Shown here: in pieces, positions 1 through 10,175 of the stretch
How positions within the stretch are numbered: the stretch's first letter is position 1
How the letters are laid out: each line of letters opens with the position of its first letter
Source: Pseudomonadota bacterium
Lineage (GTDB): Bacteria > Pseudomonadota > Alphaproteobacteria > Paracaedibacterales > CAITNM01
DNA length: 64,000 bases
Direction of reading: 5' to 3'
Assembly: GCA_018062345.1 (NCBI GenBank)
Contig: JAGOSL010000006.1
Coordinates: 1-64,000 of the forward strand
Program-made: the position numbers and the translations under genes
Notes under the pieces: generated by a model
Database searches by the model: none
What the model saw: only the letters and a program-made list of their open reading frames with translations
What the model was told of the DNA's origin: nothing

Positions 1-110
1 AAGACAGTTTTCCTCTATTCCTAAAAGAGTGCGAATGGAGATTTAACAATCCAAATCCAAAAGCTCAATTAACCCAGCTAAAGCAATGGGTTAAAGGCAA
101 ACTAAAATAG
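1..110 (+). mobile_element. C-terminal end of an ISXO2-like (IS1595-family) transposase
   Basis: The window opens inside a reading frame that runs from base 3 to a TAG at 108-110. It encodes a tail with the order KECEWRFNN, then a basic stretch ending QLKQWVKGKLK. The ECEWRFN block followed by a short helical tail is typical of the end of ISXO2-like DDE transposases. Only about 35 residues are visible, so it cannot be judged whether the gene is intact upstream. No terminal inverted repeat was recognised after the stop. Confidence 0.65.
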
Positions 111-222
111 TTATCTAGGACACCCCTAATTGATTTTAAGCTCTTCTTAAAACTTATAACTTCATCAATAGTAGAATATCCACAAGAAGAAAAAGCTACG
201 ATTAAAAAAAGAGCCCTTAACA

Positions 223-690
223 TCAGCTAACTTCTGGGTCTATAGCACAAAAGCCATTAACTTTTTCTCTGTGTTCTGGATCATTTGTTTGAATGGTGGC
301 TCTAATTTCATACACATCTGAGGGGTGCTTTCTAAAAGCATTCCATAAATACGAATGTAATCCAAAGTCATAAAATTTCCCTAAAATAAATGATTTTGTA
401 ATATCACTTGGTAATTCCTCTGGAGTAAGACTTCTCTCATTTTCGTACTCTGGACATCTACTATAAACATTCCTAACTCTTACAGAAACTTTAATAGGGA
501 TCCCCTCAGAGGCTATTCTCTTAAAATAATCTATGAACTCTTTTTCTATGAGAACATCATCATGCAAGCTAAAACTAGAAGCAAATTCTTTTTCTAATGA
601 CTCACTTTCAGACGCCGCTTTCAAAAGACTACCAATGAGAAACATCAGCCCTGTGAATGTAAAGGCGTAAAAAATTGATTTTTTACTCAT
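223..690 (-). CDS. Small exported protein of unknown function
   Basis: The 155-residue product begins with two lysines and a hydrophobic stretch at about residues 6-25, consistent with an N-terminal secretion signal. The mature part is polar and charged, with two cysteines (in YSRCPEYE and NGFCAID) that could pair in the periplasm. A strong ribosome-binding site, AAGGAG, lies seven bases before the ATG and supports this start. I do not recognise the family. It lies between the transposase tail and the repeat cluster upstream of the primase genes, so it is probably accessory. It has no close operon partner. Confidence 0.6.
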   Translation of the reverse strand: MSKKSIFYAFTFTGLMFLIGSLLKAASESESLEKEFASSFSLHDDVLIEKEFIDYFKRIASEGIPIKVSVRVRNVYSRCPEYENERSLTPEELPSDITKSFILGKFYDFGLHSYLWNAFRKHPSDVYEIRATIQTNDPEHREKVNGFCAIDPEVS

Positions 691-1165
691 TTGTATCTCC
701 TTGTAATAATTTTATAGTCACCTGAATTGATTTTTTGTTGATAGCAACATTGCTATTCCTGATTGCAATTTATTTAAAAAAATACAGAAAGAAAAGAAAG
801 AATTTTAAAATTAAAACATTAATTGTTGGGTTCCTAACGATATTATTTTAGACTGTTTTTAGTATCTTTGAACTTGAAAAAATAGAAAAGGAATTCTTCA
901 TAAAATTACAGAATTCATTATCTGATGTACCCCCTAATTTTACCGTCCGACCGTCCAGTTTAGCCGTTTTGCTTATGTTGGATGGACAGGTGGACGGTTG
1001 GGGTAGTAAAACCGGACGGATCACGGGTACTGGACTGATAACCGGACCGATGAAAAAGCCGTGAACATGTAGGTTTTCTTGAGTAGTGGACATTCGGACG
1101 TCACGGACGGCATTTTTGAGGGGTCAAAAAAGAAGAAAAATAGCGAAAAAATAGGATGATATGAT
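691..1165. other. 475-bp gene-free stretch with GC-rich repeat island
   Basis: No convincing gene lies here; the short frames across it lack ribosome-binding sites and family features. The part near 700-930 is AT-rich. The part from about 940 to 1110 is clearly richer in G and C and is built from short CCGTCC/GGACGG words, described separately. The stretch follows the 3' end of the primase/helicase gene. Confidence 0.6.
942..1110. repeat. Cluster of GGACGG / CCGTCC words (iteron-like)
   Basis: The word ACCGTCC occurs at 942-948 and again at 950-956. Its complement GGACGGT is at 992-998, and GGACGG recurs at 1014-1019 and 1105-1110. A partial copy GGACG is at 1096-1100. That is five full copies in both orientations within 170 bases of otherwise AT-rich DNA. 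The position beside a replication-type primase/helicase gene resembles the iteron origins of P4-like satellites and plasmids. An origin role is inference; the words could also be binding sites for another regulator. Confidence 0.45.
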
Positions 1166-3145
1166 TTAGTGATATCGTTCCCATGCTTCGGTAAACGTAT
1201 GCTGATCAAACCCTTTACGTTGAATCCCCGCTATCTCTATGTTGCGACTGTGAATATGATACGGAGCCAGCAGTCTACTGAGTTGCCGCGGCGTGATCCG
1301 TTTATCCTGACCACGCGTATTATACATCGCCCACGGGCTTTCCTCATCGTCACATAAAGCATTAATCAAATCGACAGTGTGAATTTTAAACAGGGTTTTT
1401 TCTTTAAAGACTTTTTCAATATCGCTAAGCAATTCGGTGCCAATCGGTAACGCTTCTTTCTCATGGCCGGAAAGATGTGCTGCTGCTTGCAAAGCTTTAT
1501 CCGTCCACTGACTTCCCCCAAGGTTGGCAATCGCCAATAAGGGTTCCCAGTTATCTAAGGCGCGATCGGAAATGGAGAGATCACTCGGAAATGTCATCCG
1601 TGTGCTTTTGATAACGTCTCCATAATCTTGCGCAAAACGTAACAACTTGCGTTGCAAGGTACTAAAAGTTTGCGGATCCGCGTGGCGTAATTTTTCTGTT
1701 TGCTCATGGGTAAGCTTGCGTCTTAAAGAAATGACAATCGAGCGATCATGCAGTGTATCAGGAAGGCCGCCAATAATGGCAATGGCTTTGGCGCCCCAGG
1801 TGCTGAAGCGTTTGGGGGTATGATCTTCGCCGGTTGTTCTTATCACATAAGCCGTTGGGCGTGTGTGTCCGGAATTGATCATGCCGCGCAGTTCATCGGA
1901 ATCGCGAATAAACGTATCCGCTTCATCAATAATCATCGTCGGCTGCCAAAGTTCAATGGTTCGAAACAAAGCTGCTGCTGAAATGTTCGAAGCCAGCAGA
2001 GGTTTACACACCAATTGCCCCAATAGTGAAATCAGCGTGGTTTTACCGCAGCGTTTTTCTGGCGAGGAGACGGCAAGAATCGGTGACACATTTACTTGAT
2101 CAATTACCCAGGTAAACATTACCCATAAGGCAAGGGCGGTATCCGCATGGGTGGGTAAAATCGCAAAGCGTTTTAAAAGGTGCGTGATTTCAGCTAAGAG
2201 ATCATTAGCTATAACAGGGTCATGCCAAGGATCAATGAGTGGAAAAATATCCGCTGTGTCGTCAGTTTTAGTCTGCTCAAAACGACGCTGTGTTTTAACT
2301 TCTTGATCAAGTGTTGAGACGCTTACACCCAGCTTCTTCGCTTCTATTTTTCGCAAGCGATCGTATTCAAGCGCAGAAAGTTCAGCTAAACGTTGTAAGG
2401 TTTGTGTATCAGTATCAACATCCAGTTGAGTTGGTTCAGGAAAAACCTCTTCGTATTTTAGAAACAATCGAAAGTCTGAATTTTCTTCAATGCTTGATAA
2501 GAACTTATGCGTCCACCCCTCACGCACTGCATCTGCTAAATCGTAGCCCTTAGTTAAAGTAATCGGCGTGTCGTATTTCAGTAATTGATGTTTATCAACA
2601 CGATAATGATTAAAAAGGGTATTGTTAACAAACTGAACAGATTTGGCCCCAATACGACGACACTGTTCATACAGCTCTTTACCATAGTGTTGACCTGCTT
2701 GATCATGATCCATAGCAATCATTACATGGCGATCTTTTAAAGGCGCATAATCGGTTTGTTTTGCCGATTGTGCCCCTTGCATGGTGGTGGTTGTCACAAA
2801 TTCGGGAAATAACTCTCTCGCTGCTAAGGCAGCTTTTTCGCCCTCACAAATTAATACTGTTTTTTCAGGACATTTAACCAGTTGATCCAATTGAAATAGT
2901 GGACGGGGATAAGCAAAACCTTTGGCCTGCCATTCATGTTTATTAGAAGCACGAATAAAGGGACGGAATTCTTTTTTCAAGGCTCCATTTTCTTGTTCAA
3001 CGGTATTCCATCTGACGATGTAGCCCACAATCGTACTATGCGTATTAGCATATGGATAATATTGGTCTGCTTCATTACCGAACGCTTTCACAAAGTGCTG
3101 ATATACCGCTGACTGCTTTAAAGAAATAAGGACCTCATCAGACAT
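1166..3145 (-). CDS. Toprim primase / DUF3631-type P-loop helicase of the mobile element
   Basis: This 659-residue protein combines a Toprim-type segment and an ATPase. The Toprim motifs are ICEGEKAA near residues 99-106 and AMDHDQAG near 144-151. The ATPase carries a Walker A (SPEKRCGKTT, 361-370) and a Walker B (TMIIDEAD, 403-410) followed by sequence typical of DUF3631 (roughly 390-580). Such proteins prime and unwind DNA for replication of satellites, plasmids and integrative elements. The ATG at 3143-3145 overlaps the end of the preceding small gene by eight bases, so translation is probably coupled. Base composition looks richer in GC than the neighbouring chromosome, as expected for an acquired element. 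Confidence 0.85.
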   Translation of the reverse strand: MSDEVLISLKQSAVYQHFVKAFGNEADQYYPYANTHSTIVGYIVRWNTVEQENGALKKEFRPFIRASNKHEWQAKGFAYPRPLFQLDQLVKCPEKTVLICEGEKAALAARELFPEFVTTTTMQGAQSAKQTDYAPLKDRHVMIAMDHDQAGQHYGKELYEQCRRIGAKSVQFVNNTLFNHYRVDKHQLLKYDTPITLTKGYDLADAVREGWTHKFLSSIEENSDFRLFLKYEEVFPEPTQLDVDTDTQTLQRLAELSALEYDRLRKIEAKKLGVSVSTLDQEVKTQRRFEQTKTDDTADIFPLIDPWHDPVIANDLLAEITHLLKRFAILPTHADTALALWVMFTWVIDQVNVSPILAVSSPEKRCGKTTLISLLGQLVCKPLLASNISAAALFRTIELWQPTMIIDEADTFIRDSDELRGMINSGHTRPTAYVIRTTGEDHTPKRFSTWGAKAIAIIGGLPDTLHDRSIVISLRRKLTHEQTEKLRHADPQTFSTLQRKLLRFAQDYGDVIKSTRMTFPSDLSISDRALDNWEPLLAIANLGGSQWTDKALQAAAHLSGHEKEALPIGTELLSDIEKVFKEKTLFKIHTVDLINALCDDEESPWAMYNTRGQDKRITPRQLSRLLAPYHIHSRNIEIAGIQRKGFDQHTFTEAWERYH

Positions 3146-3449
3146 TGCTCAAAAATCCTTGTAGTTCACGTACTGCATCTGTTTGATTTATGCCGCGCAC
3201 ATATGCCCACAGCGAGATAAAATCCCCGCCTTTATCGCCGGTAGCAAAATCGGCCCATTTACCGGTGCGGGTATTAATACGGAATGAGCCAAGATGACGA
3301 TCGCAACGGGTGGGATTAAGCGCTACGTATTCTTGGTTTTTTAATGTTCCGTTGGGTAATAACCATTGCAGCAGGGGCAGCACGTAAGGGGTAAGCTGAC
3401 GGTTGAATTGATAAAAATCAATTTTTTCTTGATGGTGATTAAGATGCAT
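3138..3449 (-). CDS. Small primase-associated protein (N-terminal primase domain as a separate gene)
   Basis: The 103-residue product contains a block running from a DRHLGSFRIN segment through KWADFATGDKGGDFISLWAY and ending in QTDAVRELQGFL. This is the domain that normally sits at the N-terminus of Toprim-helicase primases of mobile elements, without zinc-binding cysteines. Here it is a separate reading frame ending inside the next gene. I chose the ATG at 3447-3449, preceded by AAAGAGAA, over an earlier in-frame codon that lies inside a hairpin. The two products probably form one primase complex; an ancestral frameshift splitting a single gene is the alternative. Confidence 0.7.
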   Translation of the reverse strand: MHLNHHQEKIDFYQFNRQLTPYVLPLLQWLLPNGTLKNQEYVALNPTRCDRHLGSFRINTRTGKWADFATGDKGGDFISLWAYVRGINQTDAVRELQGFLSNV

Positions 3450-3481
3450 ATTATTCTCTTTGGTGAATTGATGATGAATTC

Positions 3482-3511
3482 TTGCCCTCTGTCCGGAGGG
3501 CAATTTTTTTT
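3482..3511 (+). terminator. Hairpin with T-tract between alpA-like and primase genes
   Basis: Arms TTGCCCTC (3482-3489) and GAGGGCAA (3496-3503) are perfectly complementary with a six-base loop and are followed on the plus strand by eight T residues. It therefore has the shape of a rho-independent terminator for plus-strand transcription. The genes on both sides lie on the minus strand, where the hairpin lacks a trailing T run. It may insulate them from antisense transcription or act in the leader of the primase genes. Confidence 0.6.
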
Positions 3512-3515
3512 ATTG

Positions 3516-3740
3516 TTAATGCAATCGTTGCGCAACGGTACGATCGGCCAGGAAACTATCGAGATCTGATTTACGATATCTAACCAAGCGCCCTACTTTA
3601 ATAAAGGGTAGGTGATACCGCTTAGTACAACGCCACACCTCTAGTGTTCCTGGCAAAACCCCAAGATAGGCCGCGGCTTGGTTGCTGTTCAACAGCTCTG
3701 CATTTATATTAAAATTAAAGGGTGTTGGATAATCTGACAT
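3516..3740 (-). CDS. AlpA/excisionase-like helix-turn-helix regulator
   Basis: The 74-residue protein matches the small MerR-like helix-turn-helix fold of AlpA and excisionases. A segment LLNSNQAAAYLGVLPGTLEV forms the recognition helices at residues 16-35, followed by HLPFIKVGRLVRYRKSDLDSF (about 43-63), the wing and basic strand. In P4-like elements such proteins control integrase expression or assist excision. It is the first gene of a minus-strand run leading into the two primase genes. The ATG follows an AAAGGATTATTTCC region with AAGGA at moderate distance. Confidence 0.85.
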   Translation of the reverse strand: MSDYPTPFNFNINAELLNSNQAAAYLGVLPGTLEVWRCTKRYHLPFIKVGRLVRYRKSDLDSFLADRTVAQRLH

Positions 3741-4164
3741 GGAAATAATCCTTTCATGATGGTGGTTAATAGAGCTTCATCATTTCGGGTTTTTAAAAAC
3801 AAGAAAATGCCTTTAATGGATTTGAGTATGACCAAATTAAGGGTAACCGGAGTAGCTGAAAGCGCTAGTTTTATTGGCGAAAAAAGGGTGATGCCCATTT
3901 AGTAAAATATTTAGAAAATTAAATGGGTTTGACCCATTATTTCTGATGATACGTAAAAATTAAGATGCACTCGTCGGCAAAAAATCTTATGGGCATCTGT
4001 ACCATCGTTGAACAAGTTTAGGTTGAGCCAGATATCTAAAAACCGCTAGTTTTTCAGATTTTCATTGTAATGAGGCTAGTTTTTGATTTTGAATCTAAGC
4101 TCAACTACTGCCATTTTATTGACTGTTATTACATTAGCAATGTTTAATTAGCCAGTTTTTTGCT
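3741..4164. other. 424-bp divergent intergenic region rich in short repeats
   Basis: This space separates the minus-strand alpA-primase genes from the plus-strand SIR2 gene and should hold promoters for both. Visible structure includes an inverted repeat AATGGGT/ACCCATT (3922-3928 and 3932-3938). There is also a longer-range pair GATGCCCAT/ATGGGCATC (3890-3898 and 3989-3997), and three GCTAGTTTT words at 3864, 4045 and 4075. No gene is convincing here. The repeats could be regulator-binding sites. Confidence 0.5.
3890..3997. repeat. Nested inverted repeats upstream of alpA-like and SIR2 genes
   Basis: The outer arms GATGCCCAT (3890-3898) and ATGGGCATC (3989-3997) are perfect complements 90 bases apart. 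They enclose a tight dyad AATGGGT-TTG-ACCCATT at 3922-3938. All arms share the word CCCAT/ATGGG, so one protein could bind several of them. No function can be assigned from sequence alone. Confidence 0.4.
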
Positions 4165-5169
4165 ATGTGTAAAACATCAACTACATTAATGAAAGCTGAA
4201 TTGGGCAATTATATACTTACTGGTGCGGGATTTAGTAAGAATTGGGGAGGGTGGTTATCACAGGAGTTATGGAATTTTTTGATAGGCCATGCTGAAGTTC
4301 AACAAGATGAAAAATTAAAAGAGTTACTTTGGAATAATATAGACAATGGGTTTGAGCATGCCTTATGTGAAGCAAAACAGAGAGCAGAAAATAATGATGA
4401 ATGGAAGAAGCGCTATGGAAATTTACAAAAGGTTGTAAGCCAAGCGTTTAAAGAAATGAATGCGTTATTTGATGATGTTTCTAATTTTTGTCAGGGCGAT
4501 TATGAGATACAAAAGTTTATAGCCGAATTCGATATTATTTTTACGACAAATCAAGATATGCTGGTAGAAAAAAGATTTAGTAGCTTGGCAGAAAATCTTT
4601 GTATCCCTGGTATAAAAAGTCGTTATCCTGGAGCATTTCGAGGGGCTGCATATCTAAATGATTGTAGTGGTATAATTGATCGTGACACTCAATACCCCGA
4701 CTCTCAGGGTTATAATGCTCCTGTTGATCATGCTTATATTAAACTTCATGGCTCTTCAAATTGGTTCACTTCTCAAGGAGGAAATGAACTGATGATTTTG
4801 GGAGGAGAAAAAGCCGCACAGATTGCTGGAAATACTCTTATAAAATCGTACTTTGATATTCTGCGAGAAAAACTATCTGAACCAAAAAGTAGACTTTTAA
4901 TATTGGGTCACAGCCTTCTAGATTTTCATATAAATGAGATTATTTTTGAAGCGATTAGAAATTATGGACTTAAGTTTTATATTTGGAATAATTCTGGACT
5001 CAAAGACCTAATGAAAAATTTAGAAAAAGACCCTAATTATGATGAGCAGTTTTTTAAACAAGGCTTGATAGGAGTAAGTATAGTCTCTCTTCAATACATA
5101 CTCAAAGAAGATTCTATCAGGGAATTTGAGTTTGCAAGAATCAAAAGAGAATTTTTTGGAAAGGCTTGA
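4165..5169 (+). CDS. SIR2-like domain protein, probable anti-phage NADase
   Basis: The 334-residue protein shows the SIR2_2-type NAD-binding pattern. LTGAGFSKN at residues 18-26 is the nucleotide-binding loop, FTTNQD at 126-131 carries the conserved asparagine, and IKLHGSSNW at 192-200 carries the catalytic histidine. LLILGHSLLDFHINEII at 244-260 closes the fold. Proteins of this group deplete NAD+ during phage infection in several defence systems; deacetylase activity is less likely without the zinc module. No sensor domain or partner gene is evident: the next genes are HipBA, with their own promoter. An ATG eight codons downstream is an alternative start. The defence role is inferred from family and setting. 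Confidence 0.8.
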   Translation: MCKTSTTLMKAELGNYILTGAGFSKNWGGWLSQELWNFLIGHAEVQQDEKLKELLWNNIDNGFEHALCEAKQRAENNDEWKKRYGNLQKVVSQAFKEMNALFDDVSNFCQGDYEIQKFIAEFDIIFTTNQDMLVEKRFSSLAENLCIPGIKSRYPGAFRGAAYLNDCSGIIDRDTQYPDSQGYNAPVDHAYIKLHGSSNWFTSQGGNELMILGGEKAAQIAGNTLIKSYFDILREKLSEPKSRLLILGHSLLDFHINEIIFEAIRNYGLKFYIWNNSGLKDLMKNLEKDPNYDEQFFKQGLIGVSIVSLQYILKEDSIREFEFARIKREFFGKA

Positions 5170-5230
5170 AATTCATATCATTTCATGCAACGAATCCAGA
5201 CAAAATTATACCACTATTACTTTTCAAAAA

Positions 5231-5277
5231 ATGCCTTATAAGGAGTATAAATGCGAATAAAATGCCTTAAAAAGCAT
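5231..5277. promoter_or_regulatory. Two operator-like repeats upstream of hipBA
   Basis: Two near-copies of AAAATGCCTTA(T/A)AA lie at 5228-5242 and 5259-5273. The first contains the perfect palindrome CCTTATAAGG (5234-5243). The second is an ATGC-N8-GCAT dyad (5262-5265 and 5274-5277). They sit just upstream of the hipB promoter, where HipB-type antitoxins usually bind for autoregulation. HipB binding here is inference. Confidence 0.5.
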
Positions 5278-5282
5278 AAATT

Positions 5283-5311
5283 TTGACAAAAGTGCCAATG
5301 TTATATATATT
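5283..5311 (+). promoter_or_regulatory. Sigma-70 promoter of hipBA
   Basis: TTGACA (5283-5288) and TATATT (5306-5311) are separated by 17 bases, a near-consensus vegetative promoter about 47 bases before the hipB start codon. The operator-like repeats abut the -35 box from upstream. Confidence 0.7.
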
Positions 5312-5357
5312 ATTTAAAGCATATGCAGTACAATTATCAGTTTTTTGAGGGTAGACA

Positions 5358-5699
5358 ATGTCACGTAAAAACAAGCTTATAGAAACTCCACCTTACGCTA
5401 TTGAAGTGACGCTCAAGCGGCTTGGTGCTAATCTACGCACAGCTAGGTTGCGCCGCAATCTTACCATTGATGCGGTTGCACAAAAAATAGGTACTGGGCC
5501 TCGTGCCATTGCTAATGCAGAAAAAGGCAAAGTCTCAGCCGGAATTGGAATATACGCCGCTCTACTCTGGGCATTGGGTCTTCTCAAGCAATTGGATGAT
5601 GTAGCAGACCCTGTTAAAGACCAAGAAGGATTAGCGCTTTCGCTACACAATGAACGAGAACGTGCGCGTCAACATAAGGATATAGATAATGATTTCTAA
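5358..5699 (+). CDS. hipB: HipB-type antitoxin, XRE-family DNA-binding protein
   Basis: The 113-residue protein has an XRE-type helix-turn-helix at about residues 22-75 (LGANLRTARLRRN, then TIDAVAQKIGTGPRAIANAEKG). It is followed by a short helical region and a charged tail that could contact the toxin. Its stop overlaps the start of the hipA gene by 11 bases, the usual antitoxin-first arrangement. It probably neutralises the HipA kinase and represses its own promoter through the repeats at 5231-5277. The start codon follows GAGGGTAGACA, a good ribosome-binding site. Confidence 0.85.
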   Translation: MSRKNKLIETPPYAIEVTLKRLGANLRTARLRRNLTIDAVAQKIGTGPRAIANAEKGKVSAGIGIYAALLWALGLLKQLDDVADPVKDQEGLALSLHNERERARQHKDIDNDF

Positions 5700-6966
5700 A
5701 TCTCCAGAAGAAACGTGCTACGTTTATATTACTCTTCCTGGACAAACAGAACCCATCACTGCTGGTCGTTTTATTTTGACAGTCGATAGATACGACACTC
5801 CTTTGGGGCGCTTTGTGTATGGAAAGAAATATTTAGAACGCGCTGATGCTGTAGCATTTGATCCTGTTGAGCTAAAACTTAGTCAACATGTCTATGAAAC
5901 AACAGCATTAAAAGGTGTTTTTGGCGCTTTGCGCGATGCAGGACCGGACTATTGGGGGCGACGTGTAATCGAACATCATTCAGGAAAATCTCAGTTAAGT
6001 GAATTAGATTATCTCCTCTATGCACCAGATGACCGTGCTGGAGCACTTGGGTTTGGTTTAAATCAAGAACCTCCTGCGCCAAAACGTACATTCAATCAGA
6101 CCATTAATCTTCAAAAACTTCAGCACGTCGCTAATGCTATTGTTAATGAGGAAGAATTGCCAGCAAGTGCTATTCATCAGCAAATTCATGATTTAATGCT
6201 TATTGGAACTTCAATGGGAGGAGCACGTCCCAAGGCCGTCGTGGAAGACGAGGAAGGTTTGTGGATTGCTAAATTTAATAGAAGCGATGACAGATGGAAT
6301 CAGGCCCGAGTTGAACATGCGATGTTAGTTTTGGCACGTCATTGCGGGTTAAATGTTGCTAGCAGCAAAGTTGTTGAGGTAGGAGACCAAGATGTCTTGC
6401 TTGTTAAGCGTTTCGATCGTGAAAAACAAGCGCAAGGATATTTACGAGCACGCATGGTTAGTGCTTTAACCTTGCTGCGTACTGAGGATACGCATCGTTC
6501 CAGAGAACAGTGGTCTTACATTGCACTGGTAGAAGAGCTAAGACGTATCAGTAAAGAGCCCGCAAAAGATGCTAGCGAATTATTTCGTCGGATGTGTTTT
6601 AATGCGCTTATTTCAAATATCGATGATCATCCTCGCAATCATGCGGTTATCGCAAAAGAACAAGATTGGCGTCTCTCGCCGGCTTATGATTTAACGCCCT
6701 TTGCTTCTGTTAGTATTGAAAGGCGAGATCTGGCAATGATCTGTGGTGATTACGGGCGCTTCGCCAATGTCAGCAATTTTCTTTCACAACATGCTAGGTT
6801 TTTGCTGGATAAAGAGAGTGCGCTAGCAATAGTGAACGAAATGAGAGACTATATCGCAAACAATTGGTACTCAATAGCACGAGCTGAAGGTGTTTGTGAA
6901 AATGACTGCGAGAAAATAGAAACTGCTTTTGCTTATCCTGGATTCAGTAAAATACTAACAGAGTGA
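5689..6966 (+). CDS. hipA: HipA-type serine/threonine kinase toxin
   Basis: The 425-residue protein carries the HipA N-terminal lobe and kinase core. Visible motifs are GTSMGGARPKA (173-183, the regulatory/ATP loop), NIDDHPRNH (310-318, catalytic loop) and SPAYDL (330-335, metal-binding aspartate). HipA kinases phosphorylate translation factors, classically glutamyl-tRNA synthetase, and arrest growth when antitoxin is lost. All key residues appear intact, so it is probably active. It is co-transcribed with hipB. In this setting it may stabilise the element or serve as abortive defence; the target in this organism is unknown. Confidence 0.88.
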   Translation: MISKSPEETCYVYITLPGQTEPITAGRFILTVDRYDTPLGRFVYGKKYLERADAVAFDPVELKLSQHVYETTALKGVFGALRDAGPDYWGRRVIEHHSGKSQLSELDYLLYAPDDRAGALGFGLNQEPPAPKRTFNQTINLQKLQHVANAIVNEEELPASAIHQQIHDLMLIGTSMGGARPKAVVEDEEGLWIAKFNRSDDRWNQARVEHAMLVLARHCGLNVASSKVVEVGDQDVLLVKRFDREKQAQGYLRARMVSALTLLRTEDTHRSREQWSYIALVEELRRISKEPAKDASELFRRMCFNALISNIDDHPRNHAVIAKEQDWRLSPAYDLTPFASVSIERRDLAMICGDYGRFANVSNFLSQHARFLLDKESALAIVNEMRDYIANNWYSIARAEGVCENDCEKIETAFAYPGFSKILTE

Positions 6967-7090
6967 ACCTTTTGTCAAAAGCAAAAAATAAAAACCGTAG
7001 CATTCACAAAATTATTTGGAGCGCAATATACCGATATGACCATAAATTAAAAGAGAAAACTCTGTCATATCAGCATTTTTTTGAAATTGC

Positions 7091-7993
7091 TTAAATGTTA
7101 TTTTGTTCGCTGCTCTTCTTTCTTTTTGCATGATACTTTTTGCCCTCTTTTTGTTCAGCAAGGCGAATGAACTTAGCAAGATAGGGAATATCAGACGCTG
7201 CAATATCGAGTTGATGCTTTTCAATATACTCTTCAATGAAAAATTCAACACTAGTTTTTGCTGCCTCTGCTAATTTCTCTTTCCCATATTGTTCATAAAC
7301 AGCATTTAATACTTGTAACCAAGGAGTGATATACTCATTTGGGTTAAATAGAAAAGAAGGGCTGTTTATAAGAGGGGCTTTAAATTTGAACGATCGGGTA
7401 GTTTTTTCATTAAGCTCAAAAGACATGCAGCGCTCAACATCTTCTTTTCTAAAATAAATGCTTTCTATAATCTCTGCGATGGGAGGTTTTACATGATGCA
7501 TTCTTCCATCCGCCAGCAATCGATACCAGTTATAATCAGTATGCCAAAGTGCTGCATCAACTTTATGATATATACAATTATACTGAATGTATGCGTCCAA
7601 ATATCCTAGTGAAATAAGGTATCTTAAATGATGCATCGCTTTAAAAACAGGCAAAGAGCTTAGCTTAAAATCAAAACTTATACCCTTTCGTTTATTTATT
7701 TTCATTAAGAGACAATGCCCTTGAATATCAATTCTCACCTCAATAAGAAGAATAGTTATATTTGGGAAAAATCTATTTTTTTTAAGCTTTTCTTCAAATT
7801 TTTTTAAATTGTTACTATCATAAAAAATATATTTCATCGCGTAATGATCTTCTGGGATAACGCTCCATACATTCCGTGTATTTTCTATGCTCTTTCCGAA
7901 AAGTTCAATTTCTTGTTGAAGCTTATTTATTCCTATTTCATTCAAAACTTCATACACGTTTAATAATCCGGGAGGAGATTGCATATTGGTCAT
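7091..7993 (-). CDS. Unrecognised 300-residue protein of the accessory region
   Basis: I do not recognise the family. The protein has no signal peptide or membrane segment. It is rich in aromatic residues in the middle (IQYNCIYHKVDAALWHTDYN near 137-156), suggesting a folded globular core. The C-terminal quarter is helical and charged and ends in a lysine-rich tail. The ATG is preceded by AAGGAA at good distance, so it is likely a real gene. It lies between hipA, which converges on it, and the integrase, so it is probably element cargo. No enzyme motif is visible. Confidence 0.6.
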   Translation of the reverse strand: MTNMQSPPGLLNVYEVLNEIGINKLQQEIELFGKSIENTRNVWSVIPEDHYAMKYIFYDSNNLKKFEEKLKKNRFFPNITILLIEVRIDIQGHCLLMKINKRKGISFDFKLSSLPVFKAMHHLRYLISLGYLDAYIQYNCIYHKVDAALWHTDYNWYRLLADGRMHHVKPPIAEIIESIYFRKEDVERCMSFELNEKTTRSFKFKAPLINSPSFLFNPNEYITPWLQVLNAVYEQYGKEKLAEAAKTSVEFFIEEYIEKHQLDIAASDIPYLAKFIRLAEQKEGKKYHAKRKKSSEQNNI

Positions 7994-8437
7994 AGAATTT
8001 CCTTCTTAATCTTGATGTATTTAATATCATTTTCGTCGAAAAATTATAATTCATCGCCTAATATATCATTATGATTAACGAATAATCATTAAATTTAGCA
8101 ATATAAAAATAATTTTGGTGAATTTCATTAAGATAATCAAGAGTGAAAATATGGAGAGCTAATCAGATAGCATGAAAAACTCCCCTTATTTGGGCTGCTA
8201 TCGAACATTTGAGTATCATTTTTAGAATAATTCGTCCAATATAGAATTGGTTGTCGTATTTGCCGAAAAATATTTATGCGCCATCTGAAAACGACTTTAG
8301 CAGCAACAGTTAAGCATGTTTCTTCTACTTGAAAGAGAAAGACGCTCCGTTACCAACAATGTTACAGCTATTCCAATTATTTGCTTGTGATAATTCAAGT
8401 GTAACAAACGAGATGAATACCTAATATCACTGACTCT
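7994..8437. other. 444-bp gene-free stretch between accessory gene and integrase
   Basis: No supported gene or RNA was found. A seven-base inverted repeat GATAGCA/TGCTATC occurs at 8166-8172 and 8196-8202. Translations on the minus strand are broken by stops and show no clear family, so any decayed gene here cannot be named. The stretch holds the upstream region of the 300-residue gene and the end of the integrase gene. Confidence 0.45.
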
Positions 8438-9601
8438 TTATTTTCTTATGTAATCTATCATTGCACTTGTTGCTCTTTCTACAGACTCTCTTACAGGGTC
8501 AATATTTAATCGTGCATAAATTGCTGTGGCTTGCTGTGATTTATGTCCAAGAGATTTGCCAATTACATAACTATTTGCGCCAGTTGCGGCTTGCCAACTG
8601 CCTAAGGTTCTGCGCAGATCGTGTATCCTTAAATTTTGTAATTTTGCTCGTTTTAAAATTCTTTTCCAGGCACTTTTTGGTTCTTCTAAATGACCGGATC
8701 GACTTGTGCTACTGGGGAAAACCCAATTATTTTGTTTTTCTTTAAGGCGTTCCTTTAGAATTACAGTGGCTTCAGGGGAAAGTGGTACTAGAAGGGAAGA
8801 GCCATTTTTAGTTTCTGGAATACACCACGTTGCTTGATCTAAATTAATATCTTGCCAACTCATTGATAATAAGTTGCCGCGTCTTGCTCCTGTTAAAATG
8901 CCAAGCATAAAAAAATCAGCAAGGGTTCGATTATGTTCTTCTTTTAAAGCTTCAAAAAATCTTGGTAATTCATCTCCTGCAAGAAAGCGTTCTCTACTAA
9001 TTTCTCTAAATTTTTTAATACCAACAGCTGAGTTAGTTCCCTCCCATCCCCAGTCTATGGCTTTATTAAACATAACCCCTAAGAGGGTGATCATTCGATT
9101 CGCGGCATAAATACCATGTTCTTTTCCAACTTTTGCATGCAATGACTCTATTTCGCTTCTGTGAATGCTGGAAAGCCTACGCCTATCCCATCGAGCTAAA
9201 TAAAGCCTGTATAACTTCTCGTCAGTTTTCCACGACTTCTTATGAAGCTTTGCATGCCTTTCAAAATATTGAAGAAAAAGCTCATTTAAGGTTAATTCTT
9301 TTTTGAGCTTATTTTTTTCTCTGTTAGGATTTTTGCCTTGGGCAATTAATGCATTTGTCTCAAAAGCTAATTTTCGAGCATTTTCAACAGATAAGTCAGG
9401 GAATCGTCCGAGTATTATACGTTCGGGGCGTCCTTCAATTTTTCGGTAAACAAAAAAAGTTTTTGAGTCTTTGTCAGTGATTGAGATGCCAAGGCTTTTT
9501 ACGGCTTCATCATAGTAATAAGAACGTTTACCTTTTTGTGGGGTGGGTAAAGATTTCAAACTGCTGTTTTTAAAATTAAATCGGTTATTTTTAGCTTTCA
9601 T
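8438..9601 (-). CDS. P4-type tyrosine recombinase (integrase)
   Basis: The 387-residue protein has the short arm-binding N-terminal domain of P4-like integrases (about 1-95), a SAM-like core-binding domain (about 103-190) and the catalytic domain. The catalytic residues are all visible: R240 in TGARRGN, H327 and R330 in HDLRRT, H353 in LGHKS and nucleophile Y362 in IYARL. It should cut and join DNA at an attachment site, and one lies 140 bases beyond its start, the tRNA-Asn half at 9743-9787. Integration into tRNA 3' ends is typical of this family. The gene appears complete and probably functional. Confidence 0.93.
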   Translation of the reverse strand: MKAKNNRFNFKNSSLKSLPTPQKGKRSYYYDEAVKSLGISITDKDSKTFFVYRKIEGRPERIILGRFPDLSVENARKLAFETNALIAQGKNPNREKNKLKKELTLNELFLQYFERHAKLHKKSWKTDEKLYRLYLARWDRRRLSSIHRSEIESLHAKVGKEHGIYAANRMITLLGVMFNKAIDWGWEGTNSAVGIKKFREISRERFLAGDELPRFFEALKEEHNRTLADFFMLGILTGARRGNLLSMSWQDINLDQATWCIPETKNGSSLLVPLSPEATVILKERLKEKQNNWVFPSSTSRSGHLEEPKSAWKRILKRAKLQNLRIHDLRRTLGSWQAATGANSYVIGKSLGHKSQQATAIYARLNIDPVRESVERATSAMIDYIRK

Positions 9602-9742
9602 CTGGTGCTACCCTGGTGCTACCTTTTTGGTGAAAATCAGTTAAAATTTATAGATAATCATAAAAGTAATTCGCCTATAAAGTCAACTTTTACCAATGAT
9701 TGTAGGTGATTGTTAAATTATATAAAATGTGTAGACCAGAGA

Positions 9743-9787
9743 CTGTTAACCACTGGGTCAGCGGTTCGAGTCCGTTCCGGGGAGCCA
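9743..9787 (+). other. 3' half of a tRNA-Asn gene, probable attachment site
   Basis: The 45 bases match tRNA positions 32-76. They comprise anticodon loop CTGTTAA (anticodon GTT, asparagine), the 3' anticodon stem CCACT, a five-base variable loop, and a complete T arm AGCGG-TTCGAGT-CCGTT. The 3' acceptor strand CCGGGGA, discriminator G and CCA follow. The 5' half is absent: the preceding bases cannot form the anticodon stem, D arm or acceptor strand. A half-tRNA cut at the anticodon loop beside an integrase is the signature of a duplicated att core; the complete gene should lie at the other end of the element, outside the window. Confidence 0.85.
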
Positions 9788-9835
9788 ATTTCAAGTTTAA
9801 ATTCTCAAAATAATATTTGGTGTGTCGCTTTTTTC

Positions 9836-9893: not shown

Positions 9894-10175
9894 ATGGCAG
9901 ACCATAAAAACTCAAAAAAAGCTATTCGCCAGACAGAGCGTCGTACAGGTGTAAACCGTAATCGTATGACTCGCATGCGTAATTTTGTAAAAAACGCTGA
10001 AAAAGCACTAGGAATGCACAATGCTCCAGCAGTTTCTTTCGAAGAAGCTAAAATTGCAGTAGTTGCTGCAGAAAGCGCAATGATGAAAGTTGCAAAGACA
10101 GGAATTATTCATAAAAATTTTGTTTCCAGAAAAGTTTCTCGTTTGGTAGCTAGATTGAAATCGATTGCTTCTTAA
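9894..10175 (+). CDS. rpsT: 30S ribosomal protein S20
   Basis: The 93-residue basic protein begins MADHKNSKKAIRQTERRTGV and ends in a SRKVSRLVARL helix, the standard S20 pattern. S20 binds 16S rRNA early in small-subunit assembly. Length matches the family. The gene stands alone between its own promoter and a strong terminator. It is the first clear chromosomal gene after the mobile element. Confidence 0.97.
   Translation: MADHKNSKKAIRQTERRTGVNRNRMTRMRNFVKNAEKALGMHNAPAVSFEEAKIAVVAAESAMMKVAKTGIIHKNFVSRKVSRLVARLKSIAS

Follow-up and report, generated by a model that had tools for sequence, protein, structure and literature searches.

A probable composite genomic island with satellite-type control genes at a tRNA-Asn in a genome of the Paracaedibacterales

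The locus and the question

What kind of mobile element lies at the start of a 64-kb stretch of DNA from an alphaproteobacterium of the order Paracaedibacterales (assembly GCA_018062345.1)? The stretch, called the window, comprises nucleotides 1-64,000 of contig JAGOSL010000006.1 (C19, 87.7 kb) in an assembly of 1.46 Mb that is 99.8% complete in 31 contigs (genome G000). The original prediction described the first 9787 nt as an integrative element with a cargo hotspot, possibly a P4-like phage satellite, in a Holosporales-type host. The host was placed about correctly. It is a bacterium of the Paracaedibacter/Odyssella type, and among named records those nearest to the sister elements described below are a 'Candidatus Odyssella sp.' MAG and two Alphaproteobacteria MAGs. 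Given that the window begins at the contig edge, within the integrated element, positions 1-9787 hold only its right part. In short, the whole is probably a genomic island of composite make-up, targeted to a tRNA and about 31 kb long, whose control genes are of satellite type; it would integrate by itself, probably replicate by itself and be moved in trans.

Element boundaries and insertion site

The element ends, and the chromosome resumes, at the following features.

9604..9623, strand not applicable: paired arm-type repeat, GGTGCTACC-CT-GGTGCTACC
9743..9789, plus strand: attR, the 45-nt 3' part of tRNA-Asn (anticodon stem-loop to end) and 2 nt more
9894..10175, plus strand: rpsT, chromosomal flank; adjoins trxA-tRNA-Asn in four congeners

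The half tRNA-Asn noted earlier beside the integrase repeats perfectly, over 47 bp, the terminal part of an intact tRNA-Asn(GTT) in the same genome. This intact copy, which was expected to lie to the left, is on contig C20 (193155-193230) downstream of trxA. The gene order on C20 is agmatinase, trxA and tRNA-Asn, and beyond attR the window continues with rpsT and topA. The predicted empty site exists in four congeners (G006, G002, G004 and G005), where trxA, tRNA-Asn and rpsT are contiguous, and joining both G000 flanks in silico recreates it. A pair of repeats matching those beside attR lies 50 bp inside attL on C20, as is expected of arm sites for one integrase. With an integrase, direct repeats of a tRNA 3' end and an empty site in relatives, the element is a tRNA-targeted genomic island. 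Rfam and ARAGORN report no RNA in the window, which is expected of a tRNA that is present only by half. The GC content of the island (0.38) equals that of the host, and therefore the island is not recently foreign in composition.

In another congener, G001, the tRNA-Asn site is filled by a decayed relative, with a broken primase adjoining the intact tRNA (L076 9963-11604). A different contig of that genome has an integrase of another clade adjoining a tRNA-Asn half (L078 1219-2640).

Reconstruction of the island

The island of about 31 kb would be made up of the tail of C20, a bridging contig (C31) and window positions 1-9789. From synteny with a contiguous 24.6-kb element in G006, we infer the order C20, C31 reversed, an IS and C19, and with it the contig joins. 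C20 runs 6.5 kb past the tRNA, through a 714-aa orphan protein at the left end of the island (L003 10118-12262; no match in Pfam, PHROGs, NCBIfam or PADLOC) and then toxin-tip and SUKH-immunity modules, and ends within a toxin gene bearing an LHH tip. C31 is 14.5 kb long, and one of its ends falls within a 2484-aa toxin gene of which residues 2130-2483 share 94% identity with the toxin cassette of C20; near-repeats such as this one account for the assembly break. The genes for orf98, the HTH protein and the 110-aa protein of the G006 element match C31 at 93, 88 and 61%, respectively, with their order kept. The other (left) end of C31 appears to carry the start of a transposase of the type whose end opens the window.

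1..124, plus strand: 3' end of an IS transposase, which we take to be IS1595-like (35 aa readable in translation), and IS end; multicopy

Because this IS end is multicopy, the contig breaks at window position 1; contig C28 starts with the same 124 bp. A direct join of C20 to C19 by sequence overlap was sought and none was found.

Core genes

The core module lies on one strand, in the order integrase, orf300, AlpA/Xis, orf121 and Toprim-DUF3631 primase-helicase, followed by an iteron array.

8438..9601, minus strand: tyrosine integrase of a tRNA-targeting family (Phage_integrase and Arm-DNA-bind_3); motifs TGAR, HDLR, LGH and YAR intact
7091..7993, minus strand: orf300, a core gene conserved across the island family; 50% in G002 and about 40% in G006
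3516..3740, minus strand: AlpA/Xis-type regulator, 74 aa (HTH_17); 88% identical in G006
3138..3503, minus strand: orf121, N-terminal half of a split primase (phrog_510 DNA primase match); overlaps the primase gene by 8 nt
1166..3145, minus strand: primase-helicase, Toprim and DUF3631; motifs CEGEK, MDHD, SPEKRCGKT (Walker A) and IIDEAD
943..1110, strand not applicable: candidate origin of replication immediately beyond the primase gene, with five CCGTCC/GGACGG repeats
223..690, minus strand: orf155, probable secreted protein; no family match in profile searches

Profile searches bear out the AlpA-like regulator and the Toprim/DUF3631 primase-helicase of the original prediction, together with its SIR2 and HipBA. 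The AlpA-like protein scores 29.3 bits against the excisionase model TIGR01764, just above the cut-off of 28.8, and model NF005477 matches orf121 and then the primase gene in turn. Neither the primase nor the SIR2 protein has a match in a solved-structure search. Profile searches of Pfam, PHROGs and NCBIfam place orf300 in no known family; its C-terminal 70 residues are strongly conserved, and its predicted structure has a mean pLDDT of 43.5. The clade of full-length primases is confined to this genus among 42 genomes of the order, and the integrase clade extends to other families. A match to the phage Phipami28 was set aside, as it covers the helicase half only and lies in a stretch without annotated virion genes.

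The iteron-like repeats that had been reported next to the primase stand in part. The CCGTCC array is conserved in position and sequence in G006, and clear arrays occupy the same place in G002 (9 copies, a count reached by 0 of 500 shuffles) and, with the different motif CCGCTAC, in G001 (six copies; 6 of 500 shuffles), but in the G000 copy the count is within chance, being reached by 41 of 500 shuffles. By position and conservation, the array fits a replication origin that would be read by the primase-helicase of the island itself.

Sister elements and integrase targets

In G006, a complete element of 24.6 kb lies on one contig between tRNA-Thr repeats (C1:58548-58589 and 83162-83203), and the tRNA-Asn site of that genome is empty. 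It begins with a glycosyltransferase, small genes, a 2525-aa DUF637 toxin, the 110-aa protein, the HTH protein and a 160-aa protein, continues with orf98, a SEL1-like protein, primase, orf121, AlpA and SIR2, and ends with HipA/HipB (inverted, 35%), a weak DUF5677 match, orf300 and int. The G002 element is at a tRNA-Thr and that of G004 at a tRNA-Met. Common to the elements of G006 and G002 are int, orf300, alpA, orf121 and primase, then short repeats; G010 and G001 hold partial or broken copies in which the primase has stops. Between G000 and G006, the primase and AlpA are 80-88% identical, the integrase is only 49% identical and the tRNAs differ, a combination that points to modular exchange. 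As these near relatives sit at different tRNAs, movement after their split is also indicated.

Eighteen related integrases were surveyed for their targets, with flanks that were readable for 16. In all 16, the integrase is abutted by the 3' half of a tRNA, starting at the anticodon, which is by sequence from tRNA-Asn, Lys, Thr, Met or Arg. Paired arm repeats of three kinds track the integrase tree rather than the tRNA, and four flanks have no repeat matching the patterns used. The shared anticodon loop (YT-NNN-AA) is taken as the crossover core. To judge from these flanks, sister integrases switch tRNA target repeatedly (Asn, Thr, Lys, Met, Arg) around a constant anticodon loop.

Cargo between alpA and the integrase

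The hotspot in G000 carries a SIR2 gene and a HipBA pair.

4165..5169, plus strand: SIR2-domain protein (SIR2_2 and PADLOC SIR2 models); motifs GAGFS, TTNQD and LHGS; 72% in G006
5358..5699, plus strand: HipB-type antitoxin, by profile matches
5689..6966, plus strand: HipA-type kinase toxin, by profile matches; motifs NIDDHPRN and SPAYD

Sister elements carry AbiE or Fic. The G002 element is without SIR2 and HipBA, and AbiEi/AbiEii adjoin its int; the tRNA-Met element of G004 (9 kb) has Fic and HipBA and no primase match. The differing cargo shows that the hotspot is real, and together with the second tRNA half and the empty sites it upholds the original description of an integrative element with a cargo hotspot. 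The SIR2 protein is a probable anti-phage NADase. By family, SIR2 would serve in defence and HipBA in maintenance of the island.

Left arm of the island

The left arm is a polymorphic-toxin locus, with a DUF637 toxin, an LHH tip, SUKH immunity genes and a 94%-identical pre-toxin repeat. With one long toxin gene and displaced modules for tips and immunity, it is a polymorphic toxin system. It does not have the parts of a two-partner CDI system: no CdiB was found among the scanned neighbours and no TPS Pfam match in the toxin. Conjugation or full prophage genes to the left, named at the outset as evidence against a satellite, were likewise not found among the scanned ORFs of the left arm. The toxin loci of Ca. 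Bodocaedibacter vickermanii, from a related host group, similarly have a long toxin gene followed by orphan tip-immunity modules, a likeness of layout, although they are not described as mobile and the words 'integrase' and 'mobile' are absent from the text (PMC8163844).

The 3' end of a tRNA-Arg(CCT), accompanied by an arm repeat, GGGGTTACACTGGAGTTACA, which resembles that of Arg-type integrases, is found some 125 bp inward of the attL tRNA, and so the left arm may derive from an Arg-type element. A homologous left end adjoins an intact tRNA-Arg at C20:167260, and an attR-like scar lies at C20:150746. The pair was considered as the borders of a second, 16.5-kb element, and this was rejected; since core genes lie between them, the stretch is read as a rearranged scar. 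The flank that lies 16.5 kb off in G000, beyond the core genes, is immediately next to the tRNA-Arg in G006. In all, tRNA-Arg(CCT) att scars are seen at three places in G000 (L003 9840-9960; L009 1247-1300; L005 about 1500), one of them inside the Asn island.

Comparison with known families

The P4 family is defined by seven components, namely int, psu, delta, sid, alpA (PF05930), epsilon and alpha (PF03288), and a P4-like satellite has at least five of these within a small element (PMC8628076). Like such satellites, the island has a tyrosine integrase, an AlpA-like regulator, a primase-helicase and defence cargo near the integrase (PMC8628076). Of the seven components, only the integrase is found; the AlpA-like protein that accompanies it belongs to a different Pfam family, HTH_17. 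The P4 Pfam families (psu, delta, epsilon, alpha PF03288 and alpA PF05930) are absent from all island ORFs scanned, and sid has no match to island ORFs in PHROGs scans. With its toxin locus, the island is also far larger than a typical P4-like element (PMC8628076). The P4-like identity first suggested is thus abandoned.

The PICMI of the Vibrionaceae need only int, alpA, the gene beside int and a primase, and have no capsid-remodelling genes (PMC10803314). The island has int, AlpA and primase colocalised, and the PICMI model accepts HTH_17 as alpA (PMC10803314). Both share the order int, gene next to int, alpA, small gene and primase, and both carry defence cargo; the place of orf300 next to int recalls that of iolg (PMC10803314), a likeness of position. 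Rather than a DUF3987/DUF5906 primase beside fis, the island has a DUF3631 and Toprim primase at a tRNA-Asn site, and unlike PICMI it is about 31 kb long with a toxin locus and has no helper known. Its core gene order is closer to PICMI-type satellites than to P4, and the primase family and insertion site differ.

The nearest primases in viral contigs (IMG/VR L113-L115 and L117) are 42-50% identical, and int and AlpA genes lie upstream of the primase in most of these (the int of L115 is not matched by similarity). These capsid-forming PICI-like contigs carry a head protease, major head protein, portal or terminase, whereas head and packaging genes of its own were found neither in the island nor in the scanned genes of the G006 element. 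A literature search on satellites in Rickettsiales found nothing relevant. A 10.4-kb viral contig (L152 217-3311) has a related integrase (46%) and AlpA (70% over 53 aa) with one 226-aa gene between them, and then tail-like genes; the int-orf-AlpA block therefore also travels with phage genes.

Weighing the explanations

Because the scanned ORFs of the island yielded no packaging, capsid, P4-specific or conjugation genes, the island is large and IMG/VR scans gave no close viral copy, it is filed as a tRNA island with a satellite-type core. For a composite island of this kind speak the perfect 47-bp att repeat, the four empty sites, the arm repeats at both ends, the unbroken motifs of the integrase, SIR2, HipA and primase, the recurrence of the core at other tRNAs with different cargo, the synteny of C31 with G006, its 94% identity to the C20 cassette and the repeat array after the primase. 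Against it stand contig joins that are not read through, an IS at one join whose end is shared with C28, a repeat count in G000 within chance and a host-like GC content. That the island is a true satellite of a novel family, which a helper phage packages in PICMI style and which toxin cargo has enlarged, is unlikely. Such a satellite would account for the PICMI order of the core, the anti-phage-like cargo of the sisters and the viral-contig primases that adjoin int/AlpA and head or packaging genes, but no terminase, capsid-remodelling, psu, sid or delta gene was found in the scanned ORFs, known satellites are small, no close copy was found in IMG/VR scans of viral contigs, and no helper prophage is seen in G000. 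G000 has one portal gene and one terminase gene, with 35 kb between them: the portal is clustered with genes for a prohead protease, a major capsid protein and a connector (C25:78.6-84.6 kb; L137 2621-8647), the terminase is at C25:119036-119638, and 7 of 11 congeners have a single portal. For these reasons, the C25 head genes look to us like a gene-transfer-agent-like set, not a helper prophage.

It is rather less probable that two elements share one site, with a small integrase/primase element of Asn type on the right that was joined by chance to a separate toxin island of Arg type on the left. The tRNA-Arg(CCT) 3' end with its GGGGTTACACTGGAGTTACA repeat inside attL, homologous to the flank of the intact tRNA-Arg, would fit such a join, but the island shows neither a right end nor an integrase that would belong to an Arg-type element, and in G006 a single uninterrupted element carries both the toxin locus and the int-primase module. 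Similarly improbable, and slightly more so, is a decayed element that can no longer move and persists for its cargo alone. The broken primases of G010 and G001 and the IS at the left edge of the window are in keeping with decay, but G000 encodes full-length versions of the integrase, AlpA, primase, SIR2 and HipA that keep their catalytic motifs, its att core has no mismatch, and the movement since the split from G006 speaks against immobility. An integrative conjugative or mobilisable element with lost or hidden transfer genes is highly improbable: a conjugation-type relaxase/helicase remnant does lie with a tyrosine integrase on C15 of G000, but no relaxase, coupling protein or mating-pair gene was found in the scanned ORFs of the island, of which the C20-C31-C19 gap is partly read, or in the complete G006 element.

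Proposed behaviour and significance

As a composite island, the element would behave as follows. As a circle, it would be inserted by the integrase into tRNA-Asn(GTT) at the anticodon loop and would restore the tRNA on insertion, as the anatomy and empty sites support. AlpA/Xis, by its family, would turn the integrase toward excision, and the split primase-helicase may copy the circle after excision, starting at the repeat array immediately downstream, as position and conservation suggest. To judge from their families, HipBA would arrest cells that lose the island, SIR2 would deplete NAD when phages infect, and the polymorphic toxin of the left arm, with its exchangeable tips and immunity genes, would hit competitors. 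Pfam and PHROGs scans of the island ORFs, with the C20-C31-C19 gap partly read, found no capsid, terminase, psu, sid, delta, relaxase or conjugation gene; having no transfer or packaging gene, the island would move in trans, putatively by an unseen phage, by the gene-transfer-agent-like particles of the host or by DNA uptake. A bolder reading, that such large endosymbiont islands with a satellite core excise and replicate themselves and are borne by phages or by gene-transfer-agent-like particles of the host between protist-associated bacteria, spreading anti-phage and anti-competitor genes, is speculative and unlikely.

A close parallel is the composite island CGI48 of Shewanella putrefaciens, which is likewise tRNA-borne and is stabilised by HipAB; it is reported as non-replicable, whereas this island has a primase-helicase and a candidate origin (PMC8978831). 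The family described here looks active in a protist-associated lineage where gene exchange is thought to be limited, and it combines satellite-type control genes with defence against phages and toxins against other bacteria. Contiguous, empty and mosaic versions of the island occur side by side within a single genus, and the sister integrases, with five tRNAs and one anticodon-loop position, form a natural series on change of integrase target.

Elsewhere in G000, the stretch at C15:78-97.9 kb (L100 1-19901) is what is left of a different mobile element and holds a TraA-like helicase/Toprim protein (1075 aa or more), a tyrosine integrase, a HipA_C-like protein and transposase pieces.
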